From positions 1 through 45,778 of IMG/VR virus record IMGVR_UViG_3300021478_000050: a stretch of 45,778 nt of DNA; one strand, 5' to 3'. The stretch comes from a virus. Made by a program: the position numbers and the translations under genes. The notes beneath the pieces were generated by a model. The model searched no databases and was not told the DNA's origin. It was given only the letters and a program-made list of their open reading frames with translations. Each line of letters opens with the position of its first letter. The first letter of the stretch is position 1. This document shows, piece after piece, positions 20,346 through 33,706 of this stretch.

Positions 20346-22817
20346 TTATGGATCATGCATTGCAGTACATTCGAGAGTTCCGCTCGTAGCCCCACCCGTG
20401 GCTCCGTTGGTAATTCCGGCGATAATTTGGGAAGTGGACTTAGTTAGATTCAGAACGGTCATTGTGTTCACGTTCCCGCCGGTTATTGCACAGGTGGGAG
20501 AATAGCTCGTGTCGGGCCACGGGTAATTCCATGTGAGAGTTGTGTTGCATGTAGCGCCCGCTCCAGCGCCGGTCGCACAAGCGGCTCCACGGATACTCTG
20601 GACCAGCTTGGGAGCTACAAATGTCCCCCCGGCGACACCGTTAGATTGCGTAGAGAAGGTGACGTTGCAGAACACGTTGTTCGTGTCGTTAGAGCCCCAG
20701 CCGATGTCCGTCGTGTTGTAGAGCGACGTTCCGTTGCAAATCTTGTTATCCGTCTGAGCCGTGGTGTCGCCACCGACTATGAATCCGCCGCCACCGACGC
20801 CTCCGGTGGCTGTCGTGTTCCAGTTGGTGAAGTTATTGCGCCGCGAGTTGCCGTCCAGGAGAATGGCTATAAAGGTGGAACCGGCAGAATGCACTTGGAT
20901 GTTGGTGAAGTTGTTCCAACTGGAGTGCTGTAACTTCATGCCGCGATCAGCTCCCTTGACGGAGGTGATATCGCTGATGTTGGAGCCGTTGTCGAAGTAG
21001 AAGCCGGGGCCGAATGTGCCGGATTCGGTGCTGAACCATCGTTCGGCCTGCATCCCGGTCTGTATCGCCGCGTAAAGATCGTTGAATCCCGTGGTGGAGC
21101 CGATCTTGCTGGAGCGCAGGTCGGTGAAGCGGTTCTTATAGCCATAGCTGGCATTCATTCCGAAGGCGGTGGTTTGTACTCCCACGAAGTCCAAGTTGCG
21201 AACTTCGGAGTTAATGGCAAATTCCAGCAGCAGAGCGTTCGTGGTGGCTCCGGTCTGGCCGGTGAGATCCAAGGTGAATCCACCGATTCTGACGTTCAGC
21301 AACGGGGCGGTGTACTTCTGAACCTTGGCTGTGTTCGCCGTGAGAAAGCTCTCGTACATCGGGTCCGCCGTGGTGATGGTGTCGCCTACGAGGTTATCTA
21401 CCCGCGTAGTCTCGTAAGTGGTTATCGCCAGAGCGTCCGATATAAGAATGTAGTCTCCGATGCTCAATCCGAGAGCTGCGGCTCCTCCGCCGACCAGCGC
21501 CACCGTGTTGCTACCCTCGCTGGAGTTGGAGGTCAGGTTCGATGTTGTGCCTCCCAGCGTACCTACGAAGGAGAGGCAGTTGAACGACGAGCTTCCCGTG
21601 CAGGTGATGATGGATGTAGATCCGGAGCCTTGCAGGCAGGCGTTCGAGGAGTTCCAAGAGACGCTGCTGCTGATGGAAATGGTCGTAGCTGGAGGGATGT
21701 TCACGCAGGTCCCAGCGGAAGTGGCGGCGGTGATAGCGTTGGTCAGGCCCGTCTGCGTCTTGGGATATTGCGAACCGTCGAGGTTTATTGCACCGTTCAG
21801 CGTACCGACTGTATCGGTCCCCGTGAGAGTCACATTACCACTGTCGGTGCGTGTTCCGGTGACGGTGCCGGTGATGACTGGAGAGGTCAGCGTAGGCCCA
21901 GTGTAGGACGCGCCCCCGGCAACAGTGCCGGTGATGGAAGGGGAGGTTAGGCTTTTATTCGTAAGTGTCTCAGTGCCGGTGTCTGTGCCGGTTGTCGTCG
22001 GCGAGGTGATCGTCGGCGTGTTGATCGTCGGAGAGGTCTGAAGGATAACCGTACCGCCGGTGCCGGACACTGCTGTTAGCCCATTGCCGTTTATCCGTAG
22101 CACGTTCCCGTTTACAGAGGTATCGAAGACCTGAGATTCGCCCACGCCGAGCGAGTGCCAGTTGCCATCAGCCTCCAGTACGAATTCAAATTGCTCGGAC
22201 TTCCCGGCGGTAGGAGTCAGAAGCGGAGGGTTGATGAAGTTCGCGGGCCATGCGAAAGTCCACGGTCCACCCGCACCTTGGGTCAAGGTGACGGCGATAA
22301 GCTGCCCGGTCGTGGCTCCTGTGACGACGCTGGAAGTGACATTACCGGTTAGAGTCATGGAGAACAGGGAGCAGGAGTTGGCGGTGAAGGTTGGAGTCGC
22401 GTTGAAAGCGATAATGCACTGCGTCAGGGACTGCTGGACTGGATCGTTTAGGATGATGTCAGGGTAGGTCACTGGAGTCGGCATCCCCGCGCCGGAGGTA
22501 ATTACATCGTAGTGGCCATTCGCACTGTAAAATTGAAATTGTCCTCCCGTTTGGGCCACAAAAGGGTTTGCCAATGGAGTCAGCGCATTATCGGCATAGA
22601 TCGTCGCGAGCCCGCCGCCATGAATATTCACAGTTACAAGACACTGCGGAAACGATCCTTGAACTTGATTATTACTTTGTAGTCCTGATGTTACGACCAG
22701 CGTTGCGCCAGCTTCACACCACCCTGACGCGCTCTGATTAGCAAGTAGCGAACTAGGCCAAAGAAACACGGCCAGCGCGAGAAGGCTCCATAGTGCGATG
22801 TGATTTAGACGACGCAT
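20346..22817 (-). CDS. Exported tail fibre with beta repeats and beta-helix (823 aa)
   Basis: The start is the ATG at 22817 with GGAG eight bases upstream; it overlaps the glycosyltransferase stop by 13 bases. Residues 1-27 form a signal peptide (MRRLNHIALWSLLALAVFLW, then PSSLLAN). After a beta-rich N-terminal domain, residues about 265-345 hold fibre-shaft repeats of the type T-N-K-S-L-T-S-P-S-I-T-G and T-L-T-S-P-V-I-T-G-T-V, common in phage fibres. From about residue 355 (TGLTNAITAATSAGTCVNIP) the pattern is that of a right-handed beta-helix (LNVRIGGFTLDLTGQTG; NFTNIQVHSAGSTFIAILLD). A small terminal domain from about 740 ends in LECTAMHDP. Fourteen cysteines are present. Likely receptor binding; no catalytic residues identified. 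Confidence 0.75.
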   Translation of the reverse strand: MRRLNHIALWSLLALAVFLWPSSLLANQSASGWCEAGATLVVTSGLQSNNQVQGSFPQCLVTVNIHGGGLATIYADNALTPLANPFVAQTGGQFQFYSANGHYDVITSGAGMPTPVTYPDIILNDPVQQSLTQCIIAFNATPTFTANSCSLFSMTLTGNVTSSVVTGATTGQLIAVTLTQGAGGPWTFAWPANFINPPLLTPTAGKSEQFEFVLEADGNWHSLGVGESQVFDTSVNGNVLRINGNGLTAVSGTGGTVILQTSPTINTPTITSPTTTGTDTGTETLTNKSLTSPSITGTVAGGASYTGPTLTSPVITGTVTGTRTDSGNVTLTGTDTVGTLNGAINLDGSQYPKTQTGLTNAITAATSAGTCVNIPPATTISISSSVSWNSSNACLQGSGSTSIITCTGSSSFNCLSFVGTLGGTTSNLTSNSSEGSNTVALVGGGAAALGLSIGDYILISDALAITTYETTRVDNLVGDTITTADPMYESFLTANTAKVQKYTAPLLNVRIGGFTLDLTGQTGATTNALLLEFAINSEVRNLDFVGVQTTAFGMNASYGYKNRFTDLRSSKIGSTTGFNDLYAAIQTGMQAERWFSTESGTFGPGFYFDNGSNISDITSVKGADRGMKLQHSSWNNFTNIQVHSAGSTFIAILLDGNSRRNNFTNWNTTATGGVGGGGFIVGGDTTAQTDNKICNGTSLYNTTDIGWGSNDTNNVFCNVTFSTQSNGVAGGTFVAPKLVQSIRGAACATGAGAGATCNTTLTWNYPWPDTSYSPTCAITGGNVNTMTVLNLTKSTSQIIAGITNGATGGATSGTLECTAMHDP

Positions 22818-23755
22818 CGTGCCCACTCCATTATCTCATCGACTCCGTCGCGCTTGTAAATCATCGGGAAGTATTGTCGGGATTGGAGCATCGCAGGCGA
22901 CGCCCACGCGGATGCCATTCGCTCGTCGAAGGAGAGATATTTACTAGGTGATATCGAATCTCCCCTTCCCCGCCACCATATCGCTGTGGGGGTTCCTAAG
23001 TACGCGGAGACGATGCCAACACCGGACTGGTAAGAAACGACGAAACGTGCGTTCTGTGTGATCGAGTAGAGTTGGCCGATGGATGTCTGTCCAATCAGGT
23101 TGGTCCAATATGGCGAGTCGCCATTAAGTTGCGGCCCCACAAGATTCTGGAAGTAAGCCACGTCATAGGGTGCGCCAACCGCGACAATACGTAGCCCGAA
23201 CTCGTCGTGAACACGCCTTCCAAGGTTGATCCAATCTTCAGGCTTCCACAATGGCCCCCGATTATGGCCGTCGGTAGTGTTTCCAGTGAGTGGTCCAAGG
23301 TAAAAGACAGCATAATCCCTAGGTATCAGGCTAGTCGTAAGGTGATCTAATTCGTCAATGATGAAATCCTTCCAGATATCCCAGTTGATCTCGTACTGCG
23401 GCAACCAGTTCTCCAAGCGTATCCCGCGCTCCAGTGGACCGTTCGGCATCAGCGCGCAGACACGCTCCATCTTCCAGCCGGTTTTATCCGGGAAGTTGTA
23501 CATGCCGTCTTCGATGTAGTTGTAATAGCCCTCGGGCGACACGGCGACCTTCGGATGGACGCTGTACGGTCGCATCTCAGCGGAGTCCACGAAGCTGAAT
23601 CGGCGCACGAAATCGAGCGCGCGGGTTTCGATCTGGTGGCCACCGCCGGACAGAAGCACGTCGATGCGGCCATCGCCTATCTTCGTGGAGATGGATTGGA
23701 TTTTGTGCAGCGCCCAAACGCTGTCGCCGATTCCTTGCGGGAGTAAGAAGCGCAT
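22805..23755 (-). CDS. Glycosyltransferase family 9-like protein (316 aa)
   Basis: The ATG at 23755 overlaps the HNH gene stop as TGATG. The protein opens with RFLLPQGIGDSVWALHKIQS, which fits the G-x-G-D-x-x-x-x-x-P/K loop of ADP-heptose:LPS heptosyltransferases (GT9, GT-B fold). The C-terminal half has the nucleotide-sugar-site pattern ARFVVSYQSGVGIVSAYLGT, where most GT9 members have a D-S-G-x-x-H-x-A core; the usual histidine is replaced (QSGVGIVSA), so activity is not certain. It has no membrane segment. It would transfer a sugar from a nucleotide-sugar donor; donor and acceptor are unknown. It ends the sugar-modification cassette and overlaps the fibre gene. Confidence 0.65.
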   Translation of the reverse strand: MRFLLPQGIGDSVWALHKIQSISTKIGDGRIDVLLSGGGHQIETRALDFVRRFSFVDSAEMRPYSVHPKVAVSPEGYYNYIEDGMYNFPDKTGWKMERVCALMPNGPLERGIRLENWLPQYEINWDIWKDFIIDELDHLTTSLIPRDYAVFYLGPLTGNTTDGHNRGPLWKPEDWINLGRRVHDEFGLRIVAVGAPYDVAYFQNLVGPQLNGDSPYWTNLIGQTSIGQLYSITQNARFVVSYQSGVGIVSAYLGTPTAIWWRGRGDSISPSKYLSFDERMASAWASPAMLQSRQYFPMIYKRDGVDEIMEWARCVV

Positions 23756-24219
23756 CAATTAACCTCTGTTTTATTTCGTGCACGAAACTCCGAATCACGA
23801 ATGCGAAGACAAGCTCTACACTTCCTTTTTCCTTGGTAATGATACAAATTACTCTCATCTAATAAGGAATGGCCTCTTGAACACACATTCAAGCGAGCGT
23901 TTCTATGTCGCTTTTTGCTGGCTGAATCCAACTGGTTTTTACTATTGGTTCCCGCGAAAATGTGGGACCAACGAACACAACTGGGATTGTCGCAATGATG
24001 ACACGCCTGCATACCAACAGGAAAAGAAGTGCCATGATGCAACTCCCAAGCTACTTGGGAAGCCTTCCTTATTCTACAACCATCCCAAAAATCTCCATAT
24101 CCTTTAGGATGTCTTGAGCCCATCCAAAGCCAGCACATTCCCAACTCTGGCCTAGAATAAACAAAACTTCTGTTGTTAACACGACTCCAGAATCTTTCTT
24201 CCATAGAAAGAGATTTCAC
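23755..24219 (-). CDS. HNH homing-type endonuclease (154 aa)
   Basis: The protein has the bba-metal HNH core of phage homing endonucleases. A loop CWLWMGSRHPKGYGDFWDG at residues 29-47 is followed by CHHCDNPSCVRWSHIFAGTN at 73-92, with catalytic-type His and zinc-type Cys, and then N95. A second zinc knuckle follows (CSRGH at 103-107 with CRAC at 124-127). It starts at GTG 24219 (GTGA overlap with the methyltransferase stop) or at an ATG five codons later. It ends as TGATG with the glycosyltransferase. Local sequence is much more AT-rich than its surroundings (21 of 60 bases are G or C at 23821-23880), a sign of insertion. Neighbouring genes are intact. Confidence 0.85.
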   Translation of the reverse strand: MKSLSMEERFWSRVNNRSFVYSRPELGMCWLWMGSRHPKGYGDFWDGCRIRKASQVAWELHHGTSFPVGMQACHHCDNPSCVRWSHIFAGTNSKNQLDSASKKRHRNARLNVCSRGHSLLDESNLYHYQGKRKCRACLRIRDSEFRARNKTEVN

Positions 24220-24881
24220 TGAGACTCCTTCTGATGGTCAGTCCTAATTAAGATATCCCCAGACCAAGTGTCGCCGAAATACGCCCAGTCAACACTGCCA
24301 CGGTCGAGGCCCACCTGTAGCGCACGGAATATCCCCGCCCCCACCGCCGGATCGCAGGCGTCGTCGCACAGAATCCACTTCGCGCCGGAGTTCCACGCGG
24401 ACAACAGATCGTGGTAGACCGCCTCGGAGGAGTGGTTCCCGTCGATGTGGACGAGATCGCACTCCGGCATCGTGTCTATTAACTGCGAGTCGCCTTCTAG
24501 AATCTCGAAGTCGAACTGGAGCGCGGAGAGCTTGGCGCGGACGGTTTCGAGGAAGGGTTTCCCGAGACGCGCCGACCACTCGCCGGTGTCGAGGCCAATG
24601 TAACGAGCAGTCGGACGAGCATGTAGAAACGCGAGGGCCGAGACTCCGGAGCCCACGCCGATTTCGACGATGGTTCGCGGGCGTAGGACTTTCGCGACTG
24701 CGTACTTGAAGCAGGCATAACGCCTACGATAGTCGTCTGTGTTCTTCGCGGAGAAGGATTCGTCGAAGGGGTCTAGGTACGGGCGATGGTCGTATACCAA
24801 TCTATCCCAGACGCTATCTATACACACGACAGCCTCGCGGCAGTTGTCGATGTCGCGGACGAGCGTCGGACTAATGACCAT
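24216..24881 (-). CDS. Class I SAM-dependent methyltransferase (221 aa)
   Basis: The Rossmann motif I is VEIGVGSG at residues 72-79, with the acidic motif II LDTGEW near 97 and a post-motif strand DLVHIDGNHSSEA at 142-154. The HIDGNH element is typical of the Methyltransf_24-type class I enzymes found in sugar and natural-product clusters, where an Asp and His lie near the metal/acceptor site. The N-terminus (about 1-65) is a helical cap. It overlaps the preceding methyltransferase by 11 bases and is followed by the HNH gene. The acceptor is probably a sugar hydroxyl or related small molecule; this is inferred from the cassette. Confidence 0.75.
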   Translation of the reverse strand: MVISPTLVRDIDNCREAVVCIDSVWDRLVYDHRPYLDPFDESFSAKNTDDYRRRYACFKYAVAKVLRPRTIVEIGVGSGVSALAFLHARPTARYIGLDTGEWSARLGKPFLETVRAKLSALQFDFEILEGDSQLIDTMPECDLVHIDGNHSSEAVYHDLLSAWNSGAKWILCDDACDPAVGAGIFRALQVGLDRGSVDWAYFGDTWSGDILIRTDHQKESQ

Positions 24882-25416
24882 AAATCACCACCAGTCGCGA
24901 ATATGGGTCCCGCCCAATCTCGAACTCGTGTGTCCAGCACACGTAAGGAATCTGGGAGATAACTTCTTTAGGATACGGCACGTCTTCGATGACATAGACG
25001 CCGCTGGGCTTAAGCAGCGGCATAAGTTCCATCGCTGAGACGACCTGATGCCCGGACACGTGCGAACCGTCGTCCACGATGAAGTCGAAGTCGCCGCCGA
25101 TGAGCTGAGCAGTGTCGCGCAGAGCTTCGACGTTGCTCTGGTCGCACTGGTAGGAGCGAATTCGTCCATCGTGGATGAGTCTCGCTGGGTCGGCGTCGAT
25201 GGCGTAGATGATCGCGTTGGGGAAGTATTCCTCCCACATGCGCAGGGACGCGCCCACGTCGATGCCGATTTCGAGGACTTTCTTGATTGAATTACGGCGG
25301 TAGCCGAACAGCGAGTCGTAGAAGTGAGTATACCCGTGGCCCTTCGGCTCGGGGCGCTTGTCGGTGCCGTATTTTTCTGAGAGGGCGCAGAGTTCGGTGT
25401 AGGGGACGGTTTTCAC
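24871..25416 (-). CDS. TylE-like class I methyltransferase (181 aa)
   Basis: It starts at GTG 25416 in a GTGA overlap with the previous stop. The order of elements, L-x-x-x-Y-G-T-D-K near residues 11-20, then HFYDSLFG, LEIGIDVGASLRMWEEYFPN at 48-67, YAIDADPAR, and DFIVDDGSH at 111-119, is the signature of macrocin/demethylmacrocin O-methyltransferase relatives (TylE/TylF type). Those methylate sugar hydroxyls on natural products. The protein is shorter than most antibiotic-cluster homologues. No membrane segment is present. In this position it would methylate a sugar added by the cassette's glycosyltransferases. Confidence 0.75.
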   Translation of the reverse strand: MKTVPYTELCALSEKYGTDKRPEPKGHGYTHFYDSLFGYRRNSIKKVLEIGIDVGASLRMWEEYFPNAIIYAIDADPARLIHDGRIRSYQCDQSNVEALRDTAQLIGGDFDFIVDDGSHVSGHQVVSAMELMPLLKPSGVYVIEDVPYPKEVISQIPYVCWTHEFEIGRDPYSRLVVIYGH

Positions 25417-25952
25417 TTGAATATCACTCCGATCCCCCCGCCGGATAATATCCCGTCCTGCGGCGCGCCGGGTCCCTGCCACGCGAGCGCGGAGGCGCGG
25501 TCGCAGCCGATGATCTTCGCGGACGGATGCTCCAGCGCGATCTGCGGCCAGATTCGCTTGGCGATGTTCGGGATGAGGATATCGTGGAATCCCACGAGCT
25601 TCTGCGCTGTCGAGTACCAGAGGTCGAAGTCCAAGCGTGGCGCGTCGTTGTCGTGGTCCGCGTCGATGAACACAGCGTCGGGGAGATCGCCGAGCAGATG
25701 CAGGACACGGTCGAGCGTACGGCGGTCGTGGGAGTCGCCACGGACATATTGCACGCCATTCTCATTGACGTGGCCATCCGGATTATTTATATCCACAGCG
25801 ACTACTCTCATGCCCATCTGGGCCATGTAGTCCGCGTGCCCGGTGCCGAGTTCGACGTAGGACTTGCAGTCGTAGGCGCGAAGGAGCGCGGCCCAAGCCA
25901 TGAACTCTGGCTCGCGCTGGCCGCAGGGAGCTTGCATGAATGTCGGCAGCAT
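25413..25952 (-). CDS. Class I SAM-dependent methyltransferase (179 aa)
   Basis: The start ATG at 25952 overlaps the glycosyltransferase stop as TAATG; longer in-frame starts lie inside that gene and translate into unlike sequence. Motif I is VELGTG at 33-38, with VVAVDINNP near 50 and FIDADHDND at 95-103, again the Asp-His pattern of small-molecule methyltransferases. The C-terminus is Gly-rich and ends GIGVIFK. It is the first of three small methyltransferases in a row, each coupled to the next, which suggests that the cassette places several methyl groups on one glycan or works on several positions. Confidence 0.7.
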   Translation of the reverse strand: MLPTFMQAPCGQREPEFMAWAALLRAYDCKSYVELGTGHADYMAQMGMRVVAVDINNPDGHVNENGVQYVRGDSHDRRTLDRVLHLLGDLPDAVFIDADHDNDAPRLDFDLWYSTAQKLVGFHDILIPNIAKRIWPQIALEHPSAKIIGCDRASALAWQGPGAPQDGILSGGGIGVIFK

Positions 25953-26848
25953 TAGTAGCCCGCTCGATTTGGCTGGTCTTGGATCACAGCGCCGGGGTCT
26001 TTGCCATACTTCGCCACGAAGGACTGGTAGTCGTGCTCCCAGATGCCGATGGCGGGGTCGCCGATCGTGGACTGGCAGTGGATGTGAAGGAACGGAGTGT
26101 TGGGAATTACTTTCACCGGCGGGAGTCCGCGTAGCGCACAGAGGATCGGGTACTCCATGTCGTAGAAGATTCCATTGGACTCGTCGAAGCCGCCGATCTG
26201 CTCCCAAGTTGCGATGGGAATGATGAAGCCAGACGGACCAAGGCGAGACATCGTGGTGACGCGCTCAGTTACGAAGTATTTCACGAACCAGTCGGACAGG
26301 TGGACGCCTTCGGATGCGCCTTCGGAGCCGAAGTACATTGCGCTGCGTCCGTTGGGGCATAGCTTCTGCCACAATTCTGCTGACTCCAGATCGTGGGAGT
26401 CCCAGAACTCGGGCGGGCGGTGCCAGTAGCCGGAGTTCTCAGGTGGCGGCTGGACGAGGGCTTCCATGAAACTAAGCGTCAGAGCCGACGAGTAGCCAAT
26501 CTCGGGCATCCTGTGCATAGATAGCCAGTTACGATTCTCCGGTAGCGGAGAGAACACCGTGTCGTCGTGCAGGCAGCACGCATACCCGTAGCCTAGTTCT
26601 CGCATCCATTTGATCGCTTCGTTAAAATATCCATTGATATAGCCGTTGCTACTTGTGTGACGGACCAGCACTCCCGGCTGCTTCTCGAATTCGCTAGACG
26701 GGACCGCTGCGTTGTTGTTGTCCCACACGCGGCTCCCGGTCCCGAGCGCAATGTACACCGGCAGCGTCGGCTCGCCGCGACGGAACGACCGCAGCGCGCG
26801 CATCATCTTGATCCCGCCGGTGGACACAAATACGACGCCTGCCTTCAT
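25952..26848 (-). CDS. GT-A-type glycosyltransferase (298 aa)
   Basis: The N-terminus (AGVVFVSTGGIKMMRALRSF) and the segment NEAIKWMRELGYGYACCLHD followed by DT form the donor-binding half of a family 2-like GT-A fold. CCLHDDT at about residues 91-97 takes the place of the metal-binding D-x-D. The C-terminal half has RLGPSGFIIPIATWEQIGGF followed by DESNGIFYDMEYPILCALRG, the acceptor-side W-x-x-x-G-G-F-D and D-x-E-y elements seen in GT2 proteins. There is no membrane anchor, so it acts in the cytoplasm on a soluble or protein acceptor. It starts ATGA over the methyltransferase stop. The sugar is unknown. Confidence 0.7.
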   Translation of the reverse strand: MKAGVVFVSTGGIKMMRALRSFRRGEPTLPVYIALGTGSRVWDNNNAAVPSSEFEKQPGVLVRHTSSNGYINGYFNEAIKWMRELGYGYACCLHDDTVFSPLPENRNWLSMHRMPEIGYSSALTLSFMEALVQPPPENSGYWHRPPEFWDSHDLESAELWQKLCPNGRSAMYFGSEGASEGVHLSDWFVKYFVTERVTTMSRLGPSGFIIPIATWEQIGGFDESNGIFYDMEYPILCALRGLPPVKVIPNTPFLHIHCQSTIGDPAIGIWEHDYQSFVAKYGKDPGAVIQDQPNRAGY

Positions 26849-28008
26849 GCGGAGACTCCGATCTCAGGGAGCGCGTAGGGAGTAAAGAATTGTCCTTTGT
26901 ACTCGGGATAGCGGGCGCGGATGGCGTCCTCGTAGTTCCACGCGAAGATGCAGGTGTAGTCGGGCGCAGCGTCGAGCCAGTCCTGCGAGGTCTGGATTTG
27001 GATGCCCGTGCCGGGGATATACTTGCCGATCTTTGCTGGAGTGGTGTCGGCGATAGCGGCGATCTGCGTCTGGTCGATACCACAGTAGTTCAGCATGATC
27101 GTGGCTTTCGCTGCGGCACCGTAGCCCCACACGCTGCGCTGGTGGTGGCGTGCCCAAGCGAGGAAGCCTTGGAAATCGACGCGAGTGGACTTCACGCGGG
27201 AGTGCATCGCGGAGAAGTCGAATCGCTCGTCGGGGACTTCCATCACTGTTTTATGTATGAAGTCTTTGCCGAAGAACAATCGCAGGGAGCCACCGTGCGC
27301 GGGGATACGCTCCAGCCTCTTTAGAGGCATTCCGTAGCGATAGAATAGATGAACTACTGCGTAGATAGAGAAGTAATAACTGTGCTCGTGATACAGCGTA
27401 TCAAATAGGCATTTCTCTACCATATCGCCGAGGTACGGCACTTCCACCACACAGACTCCGTCAGGCTTAAGCATCTCGGCGATCCCAGCGACGAAATCGT
27501 TCAGGTCGGGCACGTGCGCGAGGACGTTGTGGGCGTGGATCACGTCGGCTTTGGGCAGCGTGCGAGCAAGGCGCAGCGTGAAGAAGTCTTGCACCGTGGG
27601 GATGCCTTTGAGCGCGGCGGCGTTAGCGGGTCCGGAGGCGGGGTCGATGCCGAGCACCGACACGCCTAACTCTTTATATCTGGATAGCAGGTAACCGTCA
27701 TTGCTGCCAATTTCTACCGCTAGCTCCACATTTCTTTCGTCCGAATTAAAGACCATCTGACTCGCCAGCCTGTGCGCCGACTCCACCGTCGGACCCGACA
27801 CGCTCGAATAGTACGGATAATCATTGAACATCAGCACCGGCTGGACCACGTCGGCGAGCTGGCCGAGCTTGCACGACGGGCAGAACATCAGGTCGAGAGG
27901 ATAGCGCTCGGAGTGCCATTGGGGACTGGTTAGCAGCGAGTTGGCGAGGGGGAGATCGCCTAGGGACAGCACCAGAGTTGTCTCAGCGCCACAGGATCTA
28001 CACTGCAT
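26845..28008 (-). CDS. Zinc-domain sugar C-methyltransferase (387 aa)
   Basis: The N-terminal zinc domain has CRSCG at residues 3-7 and FCPSCKLGQL near 41-50, as in the Methyltransf_13 family. The central SAM domain carries VEIGSNDGYLLSRYKELG (about 93-110). It is followed by HAHNVLAHVPDLNDFVAGIA and VVEVPYLGDM, with the metal/base residues of the YHEHSYYFS segment typical of NovU/TylC3/EvaC-type sugar C-methyltransferases. The C-terminal Methyltransf_14-like domain (WGYGAAAKATIMLNYCGIDQ) completes the usual architecture and length of about 400 residues. Such enzymes add a methyl to C-3 or C-5 of a keto-deoxysugar nucleotide. This is the clearest sign that an unusual branched sugar is being made. 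Confidence 0.85.
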   Translation of the reverse strand: MQCRSCGAETTLVLSLGDLPLANSLLTSPQWHSERYPLDLMFCPSCKLGQLADVVQPVLMFNDYPYYSSVSGPTVESAHRLASQMVFNSDERNVELAVEIGSNDGYLLSRYKELGVSVLGIDPASGPANAAALKGIPTVQDFFTLRLARTLPKADVIHAHNVLAHVPDLNDFVAGIAEMLKPDGVCVVEVPYLGDMVEKCLFDTLYHEHSYYFSIYAVVHLFYRYGMPLKRLERIPAHGGSLRLFFGKDFIHKTVMEVPDERFDFSAMHSRVKSTRVDFQGFLAWARHHQRSVWGYGAAAKATIMLNYCGIDQTQIAAIADTTPAKIGKYIPGTGIQIQTSQDWLDAAPDYTCIFAWNYEDAIRARYPEYKGQFFTPYALPEIGVSA

Positions 28009-29251
28009 GTCGTAACTCCTTTGTCAGCTCGACCACAGCAGAGTCGATCAGCGGGGAATTGCTGCGGAACGCCTGCATCGACGGGTAGGCGAACTTATAA
28101 GCGTCGCCGAGTCCGTAGCACCACGCGGACGCGCCGGGGAGGGCTACGAAGACTCGCTTGCCGAGGGCTCCGGCGAGGTGCGCGACGCCTGTGTCCACAG
28201 AGACGATGAGATCGCAGGAGTCCACGAGGCGGGTTGTGTCGGCCCAGTTGTGAATCTCGTGGTTGGTGTCTGCCACGAGGTCGATCCATTCGACGCTCGG
28301 CAGCGTGGCCTTGATGCGGTCTACCTGCTTCCGGTTCAGAGTACGATGCGCTCGGGAGAACAGCTTCTCCCCGGCCTTCCAGCAGAGGCCGACGCGCGGG
28401 CGAGTGCCACTACGCCGCCCCCACCAGCGGGATTTCGGCGCGGAGATGTACGGTCCCGGCCAGATGGAGGCGTCCAGTTCCGGCATCACGCACGCGGCGA
28501 GGGAGGTCGTGGAGATGCGAAAGTCGAAGTCGTTGAGATTGATGTGTTGTCCGGAGACGCCTGCGTGCGAGCGCGGGCCGTTCGTGTACCACAGGATCGA
28601 CTTGTTATCGTGCGGCTCCGGGAGGAGTTCGTCGATCCACGGGTGGCCTTCGAGCATCGACAGCAGCGTCGCTGGGCCTTTCATGGTGATGTGGCATCCG
28701 GCGGCGCGGAAGTGACGCAGCCAGCGCAGGTGGTAGATGTTATCGCCTACCCCTGCGGTACAGATCACGAGGATGCGACGGTTCGCTATTTCATCGAGGC
28801 GGCTGACTTGGCGAGTGGTTAGATGGGAGTGGTACAGGGCATAGTATGGCCAGCCCACGTCCCAGCGCCCGAGACGGATAAGCGCGTCTCCGTAGGCTCC
28901 GCCAGCTAAGATGCTGCCAGGGTCGGCGCGGTTCGCTTCGGCGAAGAGAAGCAGCGCGTCTACGAAGCGGCCATAGCCTTCGAGGATCAGCCCGAGGTTG
29001 AATAGTTCGGTGGAATTGCGATTCAGGGAGACCGCGTGCTCGGCGGCGGTGAGAGCCTCGGCGTCGCGGTCGAAGACGTACAGAGCGGAGGCGTAGTTGG
29101 TCCATTCGAGGGAGTCGTCGCGCTGGGGGCCGAGCGGGAACGCCGCGATGATATCACTCGCCTGCTGCCGGGACATCGGCTGCTGGAGGAGGTCTCCGGG
29201 AGACTCGTGAGGGTCGAGTTTGTAGGGTACGAGGACGTGGTCGGCGCTCAT
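27998..29251 (-). CDS. TPR plus GT9/GT41-like glycosyltransferase (417 aa)
   Basis: Residues about 45-130 contain tetratricopeptide helices (ASALYVFDRDAEALTAAEHA, then FNLGLILEGYGRFVDALLLF). Residues about 160-417 form a GT-B glycosyltransferase half: RILVICTAGVGDNIYHLRWL (donor loop G-x-G-D), VGLCWKAGEKLFSRAHRTL, and the C-terminal donor site SVDTGVAHLAGALGKRVFVA followed by LPGASAWCYGLGD. TPR plus this catalytic part is the plan of O-linked protein glycosyltransferase relatives, so the acceptor may be a protein. No membrane segment is present. The start overlaps the adaptor stop as ATGA and its end overlaps the methyltransferase start by 11 bases. Confidence 0.8.
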   Translation of the reverse strand: MSADHVLVPYKLDPHESPGDLLQQPMSRQQASDIIAAFPLGPQRDDSLEWTNYASALYVFDRDAEALTAAEHAVSLNRNSTELFNLGLILEGYGRFVDALLLFAEANRADPGSILAGGAYGDALIRLGRWDVGWPYYALYHSHLTTRQVSRLDEIANRRILVICTAGVGDNIYHLRWLRHFRAAGCHITMKGPATLLSMLEGHPWIDELLPEPHDNKSILWYTNGPRSHAGVSGQHINLNDFDFRISTTSLAACVMPELDASIWPGPYISAPKSRWWGRRSGTRPRVGLCWKAGEKLFSRAHRTLNRKQVDRIKATLPSVEWIDLVADTNHEIHNWADTTRLVDSCDLIVSVDTGVAHLAGALGKRVFVALPGASAWCYGLGDAYKFAYPSMQAFRSNSPLIDSAVVELTKELRHAV

Positions 29252-30252
29252 GGCGAATACGGACCTGCCGTGCCTCCCTGCGTATTGTAATAGCTGTGAC
29301 GGAACAGACTATAGTCCAGATTGTGAATGTGAAAGTAACTGTCCACAAGTTCTTTATCCTGCTTGCGGTATTTCGTCAATAGTTTCTTGTACTCGTCCTC
29401 GGTCTTGCCGATGAGAAAGCGGAAGTCGGGTCCGGTGGAGCGCGGGGACATGTCTTTATTGGCTTCGGCCCACTCGTAGGCGTAACTGCGTGCCTTCGCG
29501 AGCACGAGGTCGTCGGCGATCTGGATGGGCAGAGTGTCGCCGGGGTTGACGAGGTCCACGCCGCGACGGATTCCGTAGCAGGTGTAAGTGAAATTGTTCG
29601 TCGGCTGGCCCCAGAGTTCAAACATTGGGTAGCCGAGAGTCGCGGAGGCGTTGGCGGTGCCCGCGCCGCGTTGGTCGATTCCGTAGGGAATCACGTGCGT
29701 CGGGAAGAGATAGAAAGAGCGCTGCGGGTCGCGGGAGTCCAGCCAGCCACGATCGTGGTAGAGGTTTAGGTTTAGGAACATCTGCATATTGCGGACGGAG
29801 ATCCACGTGAGGAAGTCGAGCATCGGCGGGGTGTAGTAGAGCTGGTAAATCTGGTAGGAGAGGCCAGTCCCGCCGGGCTCCGCGAGCGGGCGATCAAAGG
29901 TCATCTGTCCGGAGACTTGGTTAAAGGCGACGATGTTGTAGATTCCGCCGATGCTGGCGGGCGCGCCGGGGCGAAATTGGCGCTGGGTAACTAGAGAGTA
30001 AGGAGTCGATGCTGCGTTAAGAGTTGCAATCCCAGTCGCGTCGAAGGTCGCAGTGTTAAGTCCCTGCGTGTAGGAGACCGTACCGGTGGTTAGTAGCGGT
30101 GGAGTGATCCATGCGGACTCGAAGAGGTTGAACGACCACAGATTCGCCTCACGAATTTCACGATAGGCTCTGTTTATGAGGGTTCTACAATACGAAAAGG
30201 GGACCTTGGGGACTGCTCCCCGGAGTTCTGCGACTAGATCTGCGAGAGCGAT
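29248..30252 (-). CDS. Head-tail adaptor protein with apparent ATC start (334 aa)
   Basis: The frame is open and protein-like from 30252 down to 29248, but it holds no ATG until 29904, which would remove 116 residues. The upstream part reads ALADLVAELRGAVPKVP, then CRTLINRAYREIREANLWSF and a beta domain (ESAWITPPLLTTGTVSYTQG). That is the helical N-terminus and beta insertion typical of phage adaptor proteins, and it runs smoothly into NIVAFNQVSGQMTFDRPLAE. No GTG or TTG lies in frame. The most likely start is ATC at 30252, with GAGG eight bases upstream, giving I/M-ALADL. The in-frame TAG six codons before it ends the 56-residue gene, so stop readthrough is an alternative. The sequence is followed by the TPR glycosyltransferase. 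Confidence 0.7.
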   Translation of the reverse strand: MALADLVAELRGAVPKVPFSYCRTLINRAYREIREANLWSFNLFESAWITPPLLTTGTVSYTQGLNTATFDATGIATLNAASTPYSLVTQRQFRPGAPASIGGIYNIVAFNQVSGQMTFDRPLAEPGGTGLSYQIYQLYYTPPMLDFLTWISVRNMQMFLNLNLYHDRGWLDSRDPQRSFYLFPTHVIPYGIDQRGAGTANASATLGYPMFELWGQPTNNFTYTCYGIRRGVDLVNPGDTLPIQIADDLVLAKARSYAYEWAEANKDMSPRSTGPDFRFLIGKTEDEYKKLLTKYRKQDKELVDSYFHIHNLDYSLFRHSYYNTQGGTAGPYSP

Positions 30253-30452: not shown

Positions 30453-30860
30453 TTAGATGAATGTAATGCGCAGCCGGACTGATTTCGCGCTTAGATTCGT
30501 ACCGTTACTGGCTTCCGAAGGATTCGAGCCGACGCCTCGGATGGCGTTGTACCAGTGCAGCACTGCGGTGGTTTCGACGGGCGCGGATTGCCCTGCCGGA
30601 GGCGACGGGGATAGCCCAGTTGCACCTGCGGTGGTAGCTCCGAGCACCACGAGGACTTCGTTGATACCGTCGCTGGAAAGCGCGGGGATGTCCACGATCT
30701 CGAACGCCCCCATGCCGAAGTCAATGGCGTTGATCTGCTGGCCGGAGGTGTTGAAAGTGCCTGTGTTGGCATAGCTGGCAGGACCGTCAACGTCGCCGAT
30801 CCAGTCGTAGCCGCCTTTTTCATTTGGGCATGGATAGCCGGGTAATGGTCTGATCGCCAA
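30453..30860 (-). CDS. Virion protein, paralogue 2 of a tandem pair (135 aa)
   Basis: The sequence is a clear paralogue of the protein just upstream. Shared elements in order are GPASYANTGTFNTSGQ, INAIDFGMGAFEIVDIPALS, SDGINEVLVVL, a central TTAVLHWYNA segment, and NGTNLSAKSVRLRI at the C-terminus. It is beta-rich, without signal peptide, and begins IRPLPGYPCPNEKG. The position between the head genes and the neck suggests a capsid decoration, head-fibre or tail-completion protein; no family name is given. It starts one base after the paralogue stop. Confidence 0.65.
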   Translation of the reverse strand: MAIRPLPGYPCPNEKGGYDWIGDVDGPASYANTGTFNTSGQQINAIDFGMGAFEIVDIPALSSDGINEVLVVLGATTAGATGLSPSPPAGQSAPVETTAVLHWYNAIRGVGSNPSEASNGTNLSAKSVRLRITFI

Positions 30861-30861
30861 G

Positions 30862-31233
30862 CTAGACTCCCCTGATCTTAAGCCGGATAGACTTCGTTGA
30901 TAAGTTCACACCGTTCGCTACTTCAGTGTTGGTGGCGAATACAAACCAGTGGATCGTCATATTAGGGACTGCGTTGGCACCAACACCTTGCGGGGTATTG
31001 CTGTTAGATTGATTGGTCAGCACCGCGTAAGCGATGTTTAAGCCATCGGAGGAGAGTGCGTCTATCTCTACCAGCTCGAAGCCTCCAATGCCGAAGTCTG
31101 CGGCGTTGAGGGTCTCGCCAGAGGTCGCAAACGTGCCGGTGTTGACGTAGGAGGCCGGACCATCGTGATCGACGATGATCTCGATCTTCTCGCTGAGATC
31201 CAGCTTGTACCCCGGCATTATGCGGTTGGGCAT
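30862..31233 (-). CDS. Virion protein, paralogue 1 of a tandem pair (123 aa)
   Basis: It shares the pattern of the next gene: GPASYVNTGTFATSGETLNA, ADFGIGGFELVEIDALSSDG, TIHWFVFATN and NGVNLSTKSIRLKI. The N-terminus differs (PNRIMPGYKLDLSEKIEIIV). No cysteine and no signal peptide are seen. The N-terminal and C-terminal blocks align without large gaps, while the middle varies in length, as expected of an old gene duplication with an exposed variable loop. A capsid-surface or neck role is inferred from position only. Confidence 0.65.
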   Translation of the reverse strand: MPNRIMPGYKLDLSEKIEIIVDHDGPASYVNTGTFATSGETLNAADFGIGGFELVEIDALSSDGLNIAYAVLTNQSNSNTPQGVGANAVPNMTIHWFVFATNTEVANGVNLSTKSIRLKIRGV

Positions 31234-31242
31234 TGCTCCTCG

Positions 31243-31995
31243 TTAGATTCGTCCACAGAAGTTGCCGCGAGTCAGCATCACGGAACTCATCGTCGAAGTC
31301 ACGGGAAGCCCGACCGCGACGCCGAGCAGCGCGGCGAGAGTCACGGGCGACGCGACGGACACGCCCACGTCAGCGGACCCGGCGGTGGTCGGGCCGACTT
31401 TCGCGGTTACGACGTTGCCAGCGGCAGCGGCGGTCAGCGCGGACTCGAACAGGACCTGCGCAAGACCAGCGACTTGAATCCAGCCCCAGTTGCCTTTGGT
31501 GATGTTGTTGATGAACACGCCTGCGATGTACGTTGGAACAGAGCTGATCGGCTGTACGTCGGCGGTGACCTGGTAGATCGAGGTCGTCGGGTTGGCCTGG
31601 TTGCCAACGTCCGCCGCGCGGAAGAACGCCACGCAGCCGATCTGCGGGTTCGCCGTCGAGGAGGCGAGCGTGCCGTAGTACATGTACACGCCGCCGTTCA
31701 GCCTGCCGATGACGGTGTCCGAGAGCGCGAACGCGGCGGCGTCGTCTAGGCAGATGCGGTCGCCGGGCTGCGTCGCGGAGGCTTGTGGACTCTGCACGCC
31801 AGCAGGGAGCGAGACGATTGCTCCGCCGGAGACAGTGTCGTTTACGTCGTTGAGGAATCGCGCGGTGAGCTGGTCCGCTTGCTTGGTCAACATTCCGCCA
31901 GCAGCCAACTCGACTGGACCTTCGTACTGAAAGGAGTCCTCGAAGAGAATTTCGGAAGACTCGATGTCAATTACCAGCTTGTTGTAAATCTTCAT
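31243..31995 (-). CDS. Head decoration / head-fibre-like protein (250 aa)
   Basis: The start is ATG 31995 after AAAAGGAGAACTCGG; a longer frame would overlap the capsid gene. The protein is Ala/Thr/Gly-rich with alternating strands (YNKLVIDIESSEILFEDSFQ; IYQVTADVQPISSVPTYIAG; GNVVTAKVGPTTAGSADVGV) and an ending VMLTRGNFCGRI. Small proteins of this style directly behind the major capsid gene are commonly decoration or head-fibre proteins. It has one clear helical segment (GGMLTKQADQLTARFLNDVN). The exact family is not recognised. Confidence 0.65.
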   Translation of the reverse strand: MKIYNKLVIDIESSEILFEDSFQYEGPVELAAGGMLTKQADQLTARFLNDVNDTVSGGAIVSLPAGVQSPQASATQPGDRICLDDAAAFALSDTVIGRLNGGVYMYYGTLASSTANPQIGCVAFFRAADVGNQANPTTSIYQVTADVQPISSVPTYIAGVFINNITKGNWGWIQVAGLAQVLFESALTAAAAGNVVTAKVGPTTAGSADVGVSVASPVTLAALLGVAVGLPVTSTMSSVMLTRGNFCGRI

Positions 31996-32008
31996 CCGAG
32001 TTCTCCTT

Positions 32009-33151
32009 TTAGAATCCTGCTCCAATTACCTGTGAGTTGTCGCGAGGCGATGTACAATAAATGTTGAGCGCCGCCTTCAAAAACATAACTATAAGGTCCG
32101 GATTCGTCTGCGACCGGATCGGCGGCGTGAAATTGAAATTGTACTCCGGGTCGGCGGAGGGGCGGATCTTCCAGCCCTTGACTCGCAGCCAGAAGAACGG
32201 CTCGCCGGGGTTTACGCTGGTCGCCGACGGGAAGTTGCTGATCTTGCGCTGCGCGGTGGTCAGGGTCGGCGTGGTGAACGCAGCAGGTGCTATCGAGGTC
32301 GTCTGCGACAGGCCAGATGGCAGCAGCGATCCGTACTTGGTCGATGGGCAGAGCTTGTCCTCGAAGATCATCGCGTCGAGGAGTTTCAACCCGGACATGC
32401 CGATGGACACGTCTTGCTGGGTCTCGAAGCGCTGCTTGGGCTCCTGGCGTTCGAGTAGATAGGCGTAGAGAGCTTTGTTGCAGAGTCCAATGTCCGGGCG
32501 CTGCACGCAATTCAAGTACGCTTCGACGATCACCTTGTAGGTGATTTGTCCGGTGTTGCCAGCTTGGTCCCCGCACCAGATCGGCACCGCGTTCAGGGTC
32601 ACGGTCACGGCACCGTTGCGGTTCTGCCCGCCGTAAGTGGTGAATACATTGCCGTCCCACGACGGGTTGATTCCGTCGTTGATCGCTTCGGTGAGGCCGT
32701 TGATGAAGATGGTGCGGTTCGAGCCGGAGATATTCTGCCCGTGGCGGTAGAAGTCGATGGCGATGTCCGTGTTGAGCGCTTGGACCGCGTTCGCCATGTA
32801 GGTGTCCACGAGCTTGACTTTCACGGCGGGTCCGGAGCCTTGGATCACGTTGGTCTGGAACAGGTTCAGCGGGACTTGTTCCACGTATTCCTTTGGCACA
32901 AATGCAGTCGCCGCGATGATCTGCTTCTGGACCACCGCGAGGTCCGAGCCGGGGGCGATCGCGCCGCCGTTCACACGGTCGTACATGAAGGGCGTTTGCA
33001 TGATGGTGCCGCCGAGGAACTCGTCGAGAGCGCCGGAGACGCGCATCTTGCGCTGCCAAGCGGTGTCAACAAAAAAATTGTCGTATAATATGTCGTCGCG
33101 AAGGTCGGCTAACGTCGTAGCACTTATTTGATCGAAAGTCGGATCACTCAC
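32009..33151 (-). CDS. Major capsid protein (380 aa)
   Basis: It starts at GTG 33151 with AAGGA eight bases upstream. Length, position (after the scaffold, before the decoration-type gene) and sequence plan fit an HK97-fold major capsid protein. There is an N-terminal helical arm (TLADLRDDILYDNFFVDTAW), a PFMYDRVNGGAIAPGSDLAV E-loop-like segment, and an AVQALNTDIAIDFYRHGQN spine-helix region (about residues 125-143). An A-domain follows (ITYKVIVEAYLNCVQRPDIG), and the end is DLIVMFLKAALNIYCTSPRD. No protease gene or cleavable delta domain is visible. The LAGLIDADG gene lies between this and the scaffold, but the reading frame is intact. Confidence 0.8.
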   Translation of the reverse strand: MSDPTFDQISATTLADLRDDILYDNFFVDTAWQRKMRVSGALDEFLGGTIMQTPFMYDRVNGGAIAPGSDLAVVQKQIIAATAFVPKEYVEQVPLNLFQTNVIQGSGPAVKVKLVDTYMANAVQALNTDIAIDFYRHGQNISGSNRTIFINGLTEAINDGINPSWDGNVFTTYGGQNRNGAVTVTLNAVPIWCGDQAGNTGQITYKVIVEAYLNCVQRPDIGLCNKALYAYLLERQEPKQRFETQQDVSIGMSGLKLLDAMIFEDKLCPSTKYGSLLPSGLSQTTSIAPAAFTTPTLTTAQRKISNFPSATSVNPGEPFFWLRVKGWKIRPSADPEYNFNFTPPIRSQTNPDLIVMFLKAALNIYCTSPRDNSQVIGAGF

Positions 33152-33172: not shown

Positions 33173-33706
33173 TTAGCTAACCTTTGCCGTGGGTCCAGAG
33201 GGGACTGGAATACCTCTAATCCCCTTGGACTTCAACGTCAGCAATCGTTGCTTCAGTGCTGCGCGTTCGTTCCAAACCTTCTCGGAATGCCCAAGCAGTC
33301 CAGGAGTACCCAGACTCAAACTATCTTGGAGTTGAATGCCTATCTCTGCCTGCTCACCCTTAATTACAAAATAAGGCAAGCAGTTATAGAGAAGCCAGGC
33401 AGCTCTTGTGGAAGATGCTCCCCAGTGATAGGCACGCTTCCAGTTCTTACCTTCATAATATTTGGCGGTGTTCGCGTCCTTGAAAGTTCCGCCAAATCTC
33501 TCTTTGAGCCACACCATCAGACGTACGTCTGTGTTGGCCACAGTTACACGTAGGTAGAATCCCCTGCGATTTTTCCACTTCTGGGTGTTCATCAGAATGC
33601 TTCCCTCGCCGTCAATGAAGGAAGCAAGCTGAGCCCAGTCAATAGCTGTTGGGCATAGACCGTCGAAGGTTGGTTGACGCCAATCGTGTTTTGCTTTTCC
33701 GCTCAT
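33173..33706 (-). CDS. LAGLIDADG homing endonuclease, free-standing (177 aa)
   Basis: The core motif LASFIDGEGS lies at residues 27-36, with the E in the usual catalytic acidic position. It is followed by the beta sheet that contacts DNA (RRGFYLRVTVANTDVRLMVW; KNWKRAYHWGASSTRAAWLL). One copy of the motif means it would act as a homodimer. Such enzymes cut intron-less or alternative alleles and spread by copying. The gene lies in a nine-base gap after the scaffold, and local GC is lower than in its neighbours (25 of 60 at 33361-33420 against 39 of 60 at 34021-34080), consistent with late insertion. No intron is evident. Confidence 0.85.
   Translation of the reverse strand: MSGKAKHDWRQPTFDGLCPTAIDWAQLASFIDGEGSILMNTQKWKNRRGFYLRVTVANTDVRLMVWLKERFGGTFKDANTAKYYEGKNWKRAYHWGASSTRAAWLLYNCLPYFVIKGEQAEIGIQLQDSLSLGTPGLLGHSEKVWNERAALKQRLLTLKSKGIRGIPVPSGPTAKVS

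Follow-up and report, generated by a model that had tools for sequence, protein, structure and literature searches.

A variable virion-operon slot of soil podovirus-like phages and its glycosyltransferase and sugar-methyltransferase cassette, with a probable role in virion glycosylation

The virus record IMGVR_UViG_3300021478_000050, which represents a soil virus and was analysed over its whole length of 45,778 bases (the window), carries a cassette of predicted sugar-modifying enzymes inside its particle-building genes. The cassette (positions 22805-29251, minus strand) has eight genes, seven of sugar type and one encoding an HNH endonuclease, and lies between a conserved tail or neck gene and a fibre-like gene, in a slot whose contents differ among related phages. 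We estimate at about 0.6 the probability that, late in infection, the phage uses these enzymes, and sugar nucleotides of its host, to decorate a virion protein with a short methylated glycan. This explanation, already put forward in a preliminary description of the DNA, is the better supported one because the cassette occupies a virion operon in two unrelated phage lineages, its lead enzyme combines a tetratricopeptide repeat (TPR) domain with a GT-B glycosyltransferase domain, its enzymes look soluble, and neither a membrane partner of the gtr type nor a tyrosine integrase was found among the records searched.

Gene calls confirm that the seven sugar-type genes and the HNH gene form a single-strand, overlapping set between the neck and fibre genes, as first described. 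From the TPR-containing gene to the last gene, neighbouring reading frames overlap by 11, 4, 1, 4, 11, 4 and 4 bases (reannotated starts). The cassette also overlaps its neighbours, by 4 bases at the neck gene (29248..29904, minus strand) and by 13 bases (ATG start) or 22 bases (GTG start) at the fibre-like gene (20346..22826, minus strand), and so appears to belong to the virion operon. Across the cassette proteins, hydropathy over 19-residue windows stays below the usual threshold of 1.6 (maximum 1.43), in line with the earlier statement that the cassette lacks membrane segments. Compared with the nearest relative (L049), all seven sugar genes have pN/pS ratios of 0.20-0.36 and are evidently under purifying selection; together with the collinear arrangement of the genes in relatives, these values indicate that the gene set is more than a chance assemblage. 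Six of the seven were also recognised as sugar enzymes by family scans, two of these six falling under the Pfam cut-off.

The first cassette gene (27998..29251, minus strand) encodes a 417-residue protein with a TPR domain and a domain of glycosyltransferase family 9 (GT9; Pfam PF01075, 25.6 bits against a cut-off of 22). An AlphaFold2 (AF2) model (pLDDT 76.7) predicts a helical TPR part at residues ~26-144, with helices at 47-141, followed by a GT-B part at ~145-417. In the model, the GT-B part aligns best with WaaC (VIA Z 16.1, root-mean-square deviation 3.3, 228 residues) and also with TibC (VIA Z 13.7, deviation 3.5, 228 residues, ~10% identity), while the top Foldseek matches are OGT and SPINDLY, both of TPR plus GT-B layout; the TibC and OGT matches are to be read as fold resemblance rather than family membership. 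Profile searches of the PDB likewise paired the TPR part with designed TPR proteins and OGT, and the glycosyltransferase part with heptosyltransferase II. As modelled, the enzyme has the layout of soluble protein glycosyltransferases such as FlmG and OGT, which upholds the resemblance originally proposed. In Caulobacter, the TPR domain of FlmG is described as binding flagellin, with both domains required for modification in the cytoplasm (PMC7591256). Distant cellular relatives of the phage enzyme (24-31% identity) are common in bacterial chromosomes, as judged from the best 80 of 556. In 40 genomes drawn non-randomly from those 80, a flagellin gene lies within 3 kb of the relative in at least nine, against 1.2 expected from a simple estimate of random placement.

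The phage family was delimited with the major head protein (MCP; 32009..33151, minus strand; phrog_9953, 1.9e-9), which retrieved 36 relatives from viral contigs, many of them 61-67 kb long. The window is the complete virus record but is shorter than these relatives, and is thus probably a fragment. The family is podovirus-like, and the window phage looks lytic. A search that did not cover serine integrases found tyrosine integrase (PF00589) in none of 36 records, of which some are fragmentary; GtrA (PF04138) was found in none of 30 records, the same profile having matched 7 of 14 controls. Among isolates, the closest are two podoviruses of the acidobacterium Tunturiibacter, Tunturi_1 and Tunturi_2 (32% identity in the terminase, ~30% in the head protein; PMC11924767), and the window phage is therefore likely to have an acidobacterial host.

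Within this family, the slot between the neck and fibre genes contains a version of the cassette in 17 of 32 readable members, the window included, and none in the remaining 15; the 36 relatives divide into 16 with the cassette, 15 without and 5 that end too early to tell. Slot contents were taken from gene calls running from the neck gene to the next conserved virion gene, and fall into three states: a full cassette with identical gene order, a shorter or remodelled cassette, and no cassette. The full form is present in the window and in L003/L049, L012/L050 and L036/L053, these three having one additional methyltransferase-type gene relative to the window. In all members with a cassette the sugar genes begin with TPR-GT9, and in most they end with the GT9-like gene, directly before the fibre. 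Minimal cassettes consist of the TPR-GT9 gene and one methyltransferase only (L009, L031/L056); remodelled ones acquire an NAD epimerase/dehydratase, a cupin or more methyltransferases, and one gene family in relatives (c13) is unlabelled, its best PDB match having an E-value of 1.7. Cassette-free slots include that of L025, which is occupied by a different gene of 615 residues, and that of Tunturi_1, in which the neck homologue directly adjoins the fibre homologue. Cassette state changes six times on the head-protein tree, where many branches are weak, and four to six times on the trees of four virion proteins. The cassette is, on this comparative evidence, apparently a mobile, remodellable and swappable module of the late operon. 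By eye, fibre length also seems to be traded against cassette presence among the relatives. The neck gene that borders the slot has a match in 33 of the 36 relatives; this gene, earlier designated a neck adaptor, has no family match in Pfam, PHROG or NCBIfam scans and has a 34% identical homologue within Tunturi_1 gp11, annotated 'tail protein'.

Related gene sets also occur outside the family. Searches with the last, GT9-like gene of the cassette (22805..23758, minus strand, 317 residues) and with a GT-A-like gene at its centre (25952..26848, minus strand, 298 residues) yielded 19 loci and 11 viral contigs, respectively. In three phages (L152, L159 and L160), GT-A-like, GT9-like and methyltransferase genes are 31-56% identical to those of the window, and identities of the last GT9-like gene to relatives in other phage lineages range from 38 to 56%. 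The virion genes of these three phages have no detectable match to those of the window, and their head proteins, 75-82% mutually identical, belong to phrog_371, unlike that of the window. A search with the head protein of this second lineage returned five contigs, in all of which the cassette begins 1-3 genes after the head-protein gene. At two further loci (L162 and L164), the GT9-like gene is accompanied by two methyltransferases directly upstream of a portal gene, and another locus (L161) is near a weak portal match. The NAD epimerase/dehydratase of one family member (L051, 5338-6351) is 63-67% identical to those of the second lineage (L159, 6332-7330; L160, 7012-8004), a level exceeding that of the other shared cassette genes; this difference suggests that the gene was exchanged recently between lineages. 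Neither the GT-A-like nor the last GT9-like protein has a match among 50,697 phage records. The possibility raised at the outset, that the cassette is a host surface-polysaccharide locus in passage, fares unevenly: the GT-A-like gene was found in the 11 viral contigs and, among bacterial and archaeal genome contigs of GTDB, 56 pattern stretches gave no confirmed relative, but relatives of the TPR transferase are, as noted above, common in bacterial chromosomes.

The second cassette gene (26845..28008, minus strand) encodes a sugar C-3-methyltransferase-type enzyme of 387 residues, in which a zinc domain (PF08421), a methyltransferase domain (PF13489/PF08242) and PF08484 each score above the Pfam cut-off. 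Its nearest solved chains are 5t64, 4rv9 and 3ndi (TcaB9), with E-values of 4e-61 to 8e-60 and matches spanning residues 2-371 or 2-381, near full length. The alignment retains the Y-x-E-H (YHEH) motif, which has a catalytic role in sugar 3-C-methyltransferases. The protein belongs, by domain content and alignment, to the sugar 3-C-methyltransferase family and is predicted to have that activity, and the original assignment to the type that makes branched deoxysugars holds. A sugar nucleotidylyltransferase of the NTP_transferase type (PF00483) was not found in 29 of 30 records, nor an epimerase (PF01370) in 25 of 30, so that most of these phages must draw their activated sugar from the host.

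The remaining cassette genes received domain labels of varying strength. The GT-A-like protein has no match in Pfam, PHROG, NCBIfam or PDB profile searches, and belongs to a family seen only within such cassettes; its label is inferred. An AF2 model of it, built from eight sequences, reached a pLDDT of 48, too poor for a fold search. Three putative small class-I methyltransferases follow on the same strand: one of 179 residues (25413..25952; PF13578, 17 bits against a cut-off of 26.3) with relatives in the cassettes of both lineages; one of 181 residues (24871..25416), which passes the cut-off for FtsJ (PF01728) and matches the methyltransferase phrog_21658 at 1.4e-19; and one of 221 residues (24216..24881), which passes that for Methyltransf_24 (PF13578, 39.5 bits) and also has relatives in both lineages. 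The last protein scores 20.1 bits for PF01075, just under the cut-off of 22, with a weak TIGR02195 match (7e-7), and is accordingly named GT9-like only. Domain searches thus sustain the first labels for the TPR-GT9 enzyme, the C-methyltransferase and two small methyltransferases, but gave no match for the GT-A transferase and left the last GT9-like protein and the 25413-25952 methyltransferase under the cut-off. Between the third methyltransferase and the GT9-like gene, the HNH endonuclease gene (23755..24219, minus strand, 154 residues; HNH_3 above cut-off, phrog_826 at 9e-32) is likely a passenger, and L049 lacks it at the matching position. Other HNH genes lie in or near the slot, one at 33173-33706 in the window and one each in L013 (5176-5562), L014 (7667-8065) and L016 (6043-6396), where it is encoded on the opposite strand and separates the neck gene from its next neighbour. 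Genes of this kind may help the slot to turn over.

Two weak leads, the fibre-like protein and the product of the gene directly downstream of that for the major head protein (31243..32025, minus strand), emerged as candidate acceptors of the glycan. The fibre-like protein starts with basic residues, a hydrophobic run (19-residue hydropathy 1.98, above the 1.6 threshold) and an A-x-A, resembling a signal peptide, followed by a conserved two-cysteine domain. Both elements occur in L009, L011, L014, L049-L056, L065-L067 and L048 (Tunturi_1 gp12), with or without the cassette, and are not dependent on it. An export-like N-terminus of this kind, which most relatives share, is unexpected in a protein that is built into virions within the cytoplasm. 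The second candidate ends in RGxF[CM]GRI or a close form, with [CM]GRI at the extreme C-terminus, in all 17 relatives that carry the cassette and in none of the 15 that lack it. A later-found relative (L266), cassette-free and without the tag, agrees with this pattern; two others (L264 and L265) end too early. This correlation was noticed post hoc, concerns a single site and rests on one to three independent pairs on supported branches, and is therefore treated as a lead only. In the full alignment (13 and 6 rows), one column of the 31243 protein separates the cassette states, and terminase and portal each also have one such column, unconserved. When serine and threonine columns were compared within the same clade, none was found in the major head protein, the neck protein, the 33716 protein or the fibre N-terminus; the small 30453 protein and portal had them only in the opposite direction, the 30862 protein in both directions, and the 31243 protein alone solely in favour of the cassette. 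The adjacent small proteins at 30453-30860 and 30862-31233 appear paralogous, both matching one gene in many relatives, and neither has a Pfam match. The tag is of interest in view of the C-terminal glycans described on mycobacteriophage capsid and tail-tube proteins (PMC12619734). It is conceivable, if rather doubtful, that the TPR-GT9 enzyme recognises the C-terminal RGxF[CM]GRI tag of the 31243 protein and adds a branched, methylated glycan at this site, the tag and cassette being gained and lost together and the middle enzymes being swapped to change the glycan, much as in O-antigens.

Elsewhere in the window, PHROG matches of weak to moderate E-value mark terminase, portal, the major head protein and the second HNH gene. 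An acetyltransferase-like gene (phrog_1249, 1.7e-6) lies at 2551-2937 in the late region; Tunturi_1 gp34 is likewise annotated as an acetyltransferase.

Enzyme families and gene layout suggest how such a glycan might be written. Host metabolism would supply nucleotide sugars, among them a keto-deoxy sugar nucleotide, which the C-methyltransferase would branch at carbon 3. The soluble TPR-GT9 enzyme would dock on a virion protein through its TPR part and, still in the cytoplasm, add the first sugar to it; extension of the chain would then fall to the GT-A-like and second GT9-like enzymes, and capping to the three small methyltransferases. The product would likely serve to mask or alter the particle surface or the fibre. 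In this scheme, the HNH gene would be a passenger that may assist turnover of the slot.

The main rival explanation, which is possible but clearly less probable, holds that the cassette alters a host surface glycan, such as lipopolysaccharide (LPS) or exopolysaccharide, late in infection, which would keep progeny or rival phages from binding to doomed cells or debris. Both GT9 enzymes and sugar methyltransferases are characteristically associated with LPS, C- and O-methylation being typical of its ends, and the cassette adjoins a fibre gene. Glycosyltransferases encoded near fibres in pelagimyophages have, moreover, been read as O-antigen modifiers (PMC7029224). These likenesses count against a virion acceptor, as do several observations on the loci themselves: a GT9-like relative in L163 adjoins a DnaB helicase gene rather than virion genes; the second-lineage cassettes have GT9 enzymes in which a TPR domain was not detected, so that docking through a TPR domain is not general; near-copies occur among the 17 carriers, four of them (L004, L005, L006 and L008) having one common head protein; and the serine and threonine content of the fibre shows no difference with the cassette (p 0.83 against cassette-free members of the same clade, 0.64 against all). 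However, a host-surface role accords poorly with a virion-operon location in two unrelated lineages, with the lack of membrane segments in the cassette and of GtrA and tyrosine integrase matches in the records searched, and with a TPR fusion typical of protein glycosyltransferases. The host-surface alternative entertained in the preliminary description is thus weakened by operon place, the missing gtr partner and the soluble enzymes, and still retains some probability.

It is unlikely that the cassette is a cargo island lodged where the late operon tolerates insertions, with a function unrelated to the virion, such as small-molecule or host-metabolism genes. Late operons commonly house cargo genes, which again tells against virion glycosylation, and slot contents vary strongly among relatives, 15 of the 32 having no cassette; yet all seven sugar genes appear to be under purifying selection, their reading frames overlap, their order is collinear and the set recurs at a similar place in an unrelated lineage. 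Less probable still is that the cassette protects phage DNA from restriction by glycosylation or hypermodification: it lies within the virion operon, the TPR layout suggests protein acceptors, and neither GT9 nor 3-C-methyltransferase enzymes are known from DNA modification. Some phage glycosyltransferases do act on DNA in this way (PMC12619734).

Virion glycosylation has been demonstrated in few phage groups, mostly mycobacteriophages as far as the literature consulted shows. Should the proposed modification of virion proteins be correct, it would follow that phages diversify the glycans on their own surfaces in the way that bacteria do. Since cassette-bearing and cassette-free relatives exist and the cassette-free isolate Tunturi_1 is culturable, the function is directly testable. 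Searches of open-access literature, limited to titles, openings of abstracts and selected passages and mostly without subscription papers, listed no description of a TPR-GT9 and sugar-methyltransferase cassette in a phage virion operon.

Among known systems, the phage gtr clusters for O-antigen conversion also consist of glycosyltransferases carried by phage, but the present family differs in the absence of GtrA (0 of 30 records) and tyrosine integrase (0 of 36) matches and in its seven soluble-looking enzymes. The TcaB9/MtmC-type 3-C-methyltransferases, which make antibiotic sugars, share all three domains, the Y-x-E-H motif and a near full-length match with the cassette enzyme; the latter is encoded by a phage in which a sugar nucleotidylyltransferase of the NTP_transferase type was not detected. 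Caulobacter FlmG is likewise soluble, with an N-terminal TPR and a C-terminal GT-B domain (PMC7591256), whereas the enzyme here is phage-encoded, has a GT9-type catalytic domain and has no flagellin to act on, the two being likened by layout. The autotransporter heptosyltransferases TibC and Aah resemble it in a GT9-like fold; TibC adds heptose to serines of exported adhesins (PMC4358343), and the fibre here is also export-like. TibC differs in being a dodecamer with no TPR fusion noted, and the structural match is at ~10% identity. Freeman is said to have reported, in 2023, virion glycosylation in the mycobacteriophages Che8, Corndog and Myrna. Phage-encoded glycosyltransferases are described as glycosylating mycobacteriophage capsid and tail-tube proteins (PMC11256854, PMC12363180, PMC12619734), and the same has been proposed for Rhodococcus phages that encode a methyltransferase along with a glycosyltransferase (PMC13313380). 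The likeness to the mycobacteriophage system is that phage enzymes glycosylate virion proteins, as proposed here; the difference is a cassette of a TPR-GT9 enzyme with sugar C- and O-methyltransferases, in a variable virion-operon slot of phages with presumably Acidobacteriota hosts. As to homology with the mycobacteriophage enzymes Che8 gp110 and Corndog gp38, the evidence is the lack of matches for the GT-A-like and last GT9-like proteins, the two searched, in the collection of 50,697 phage records. Virion glycosylation itself is thus already known, and what is new here is the combination of enzymes, the exchangeable nature of their slot and the return of related sets in unrelated phages.

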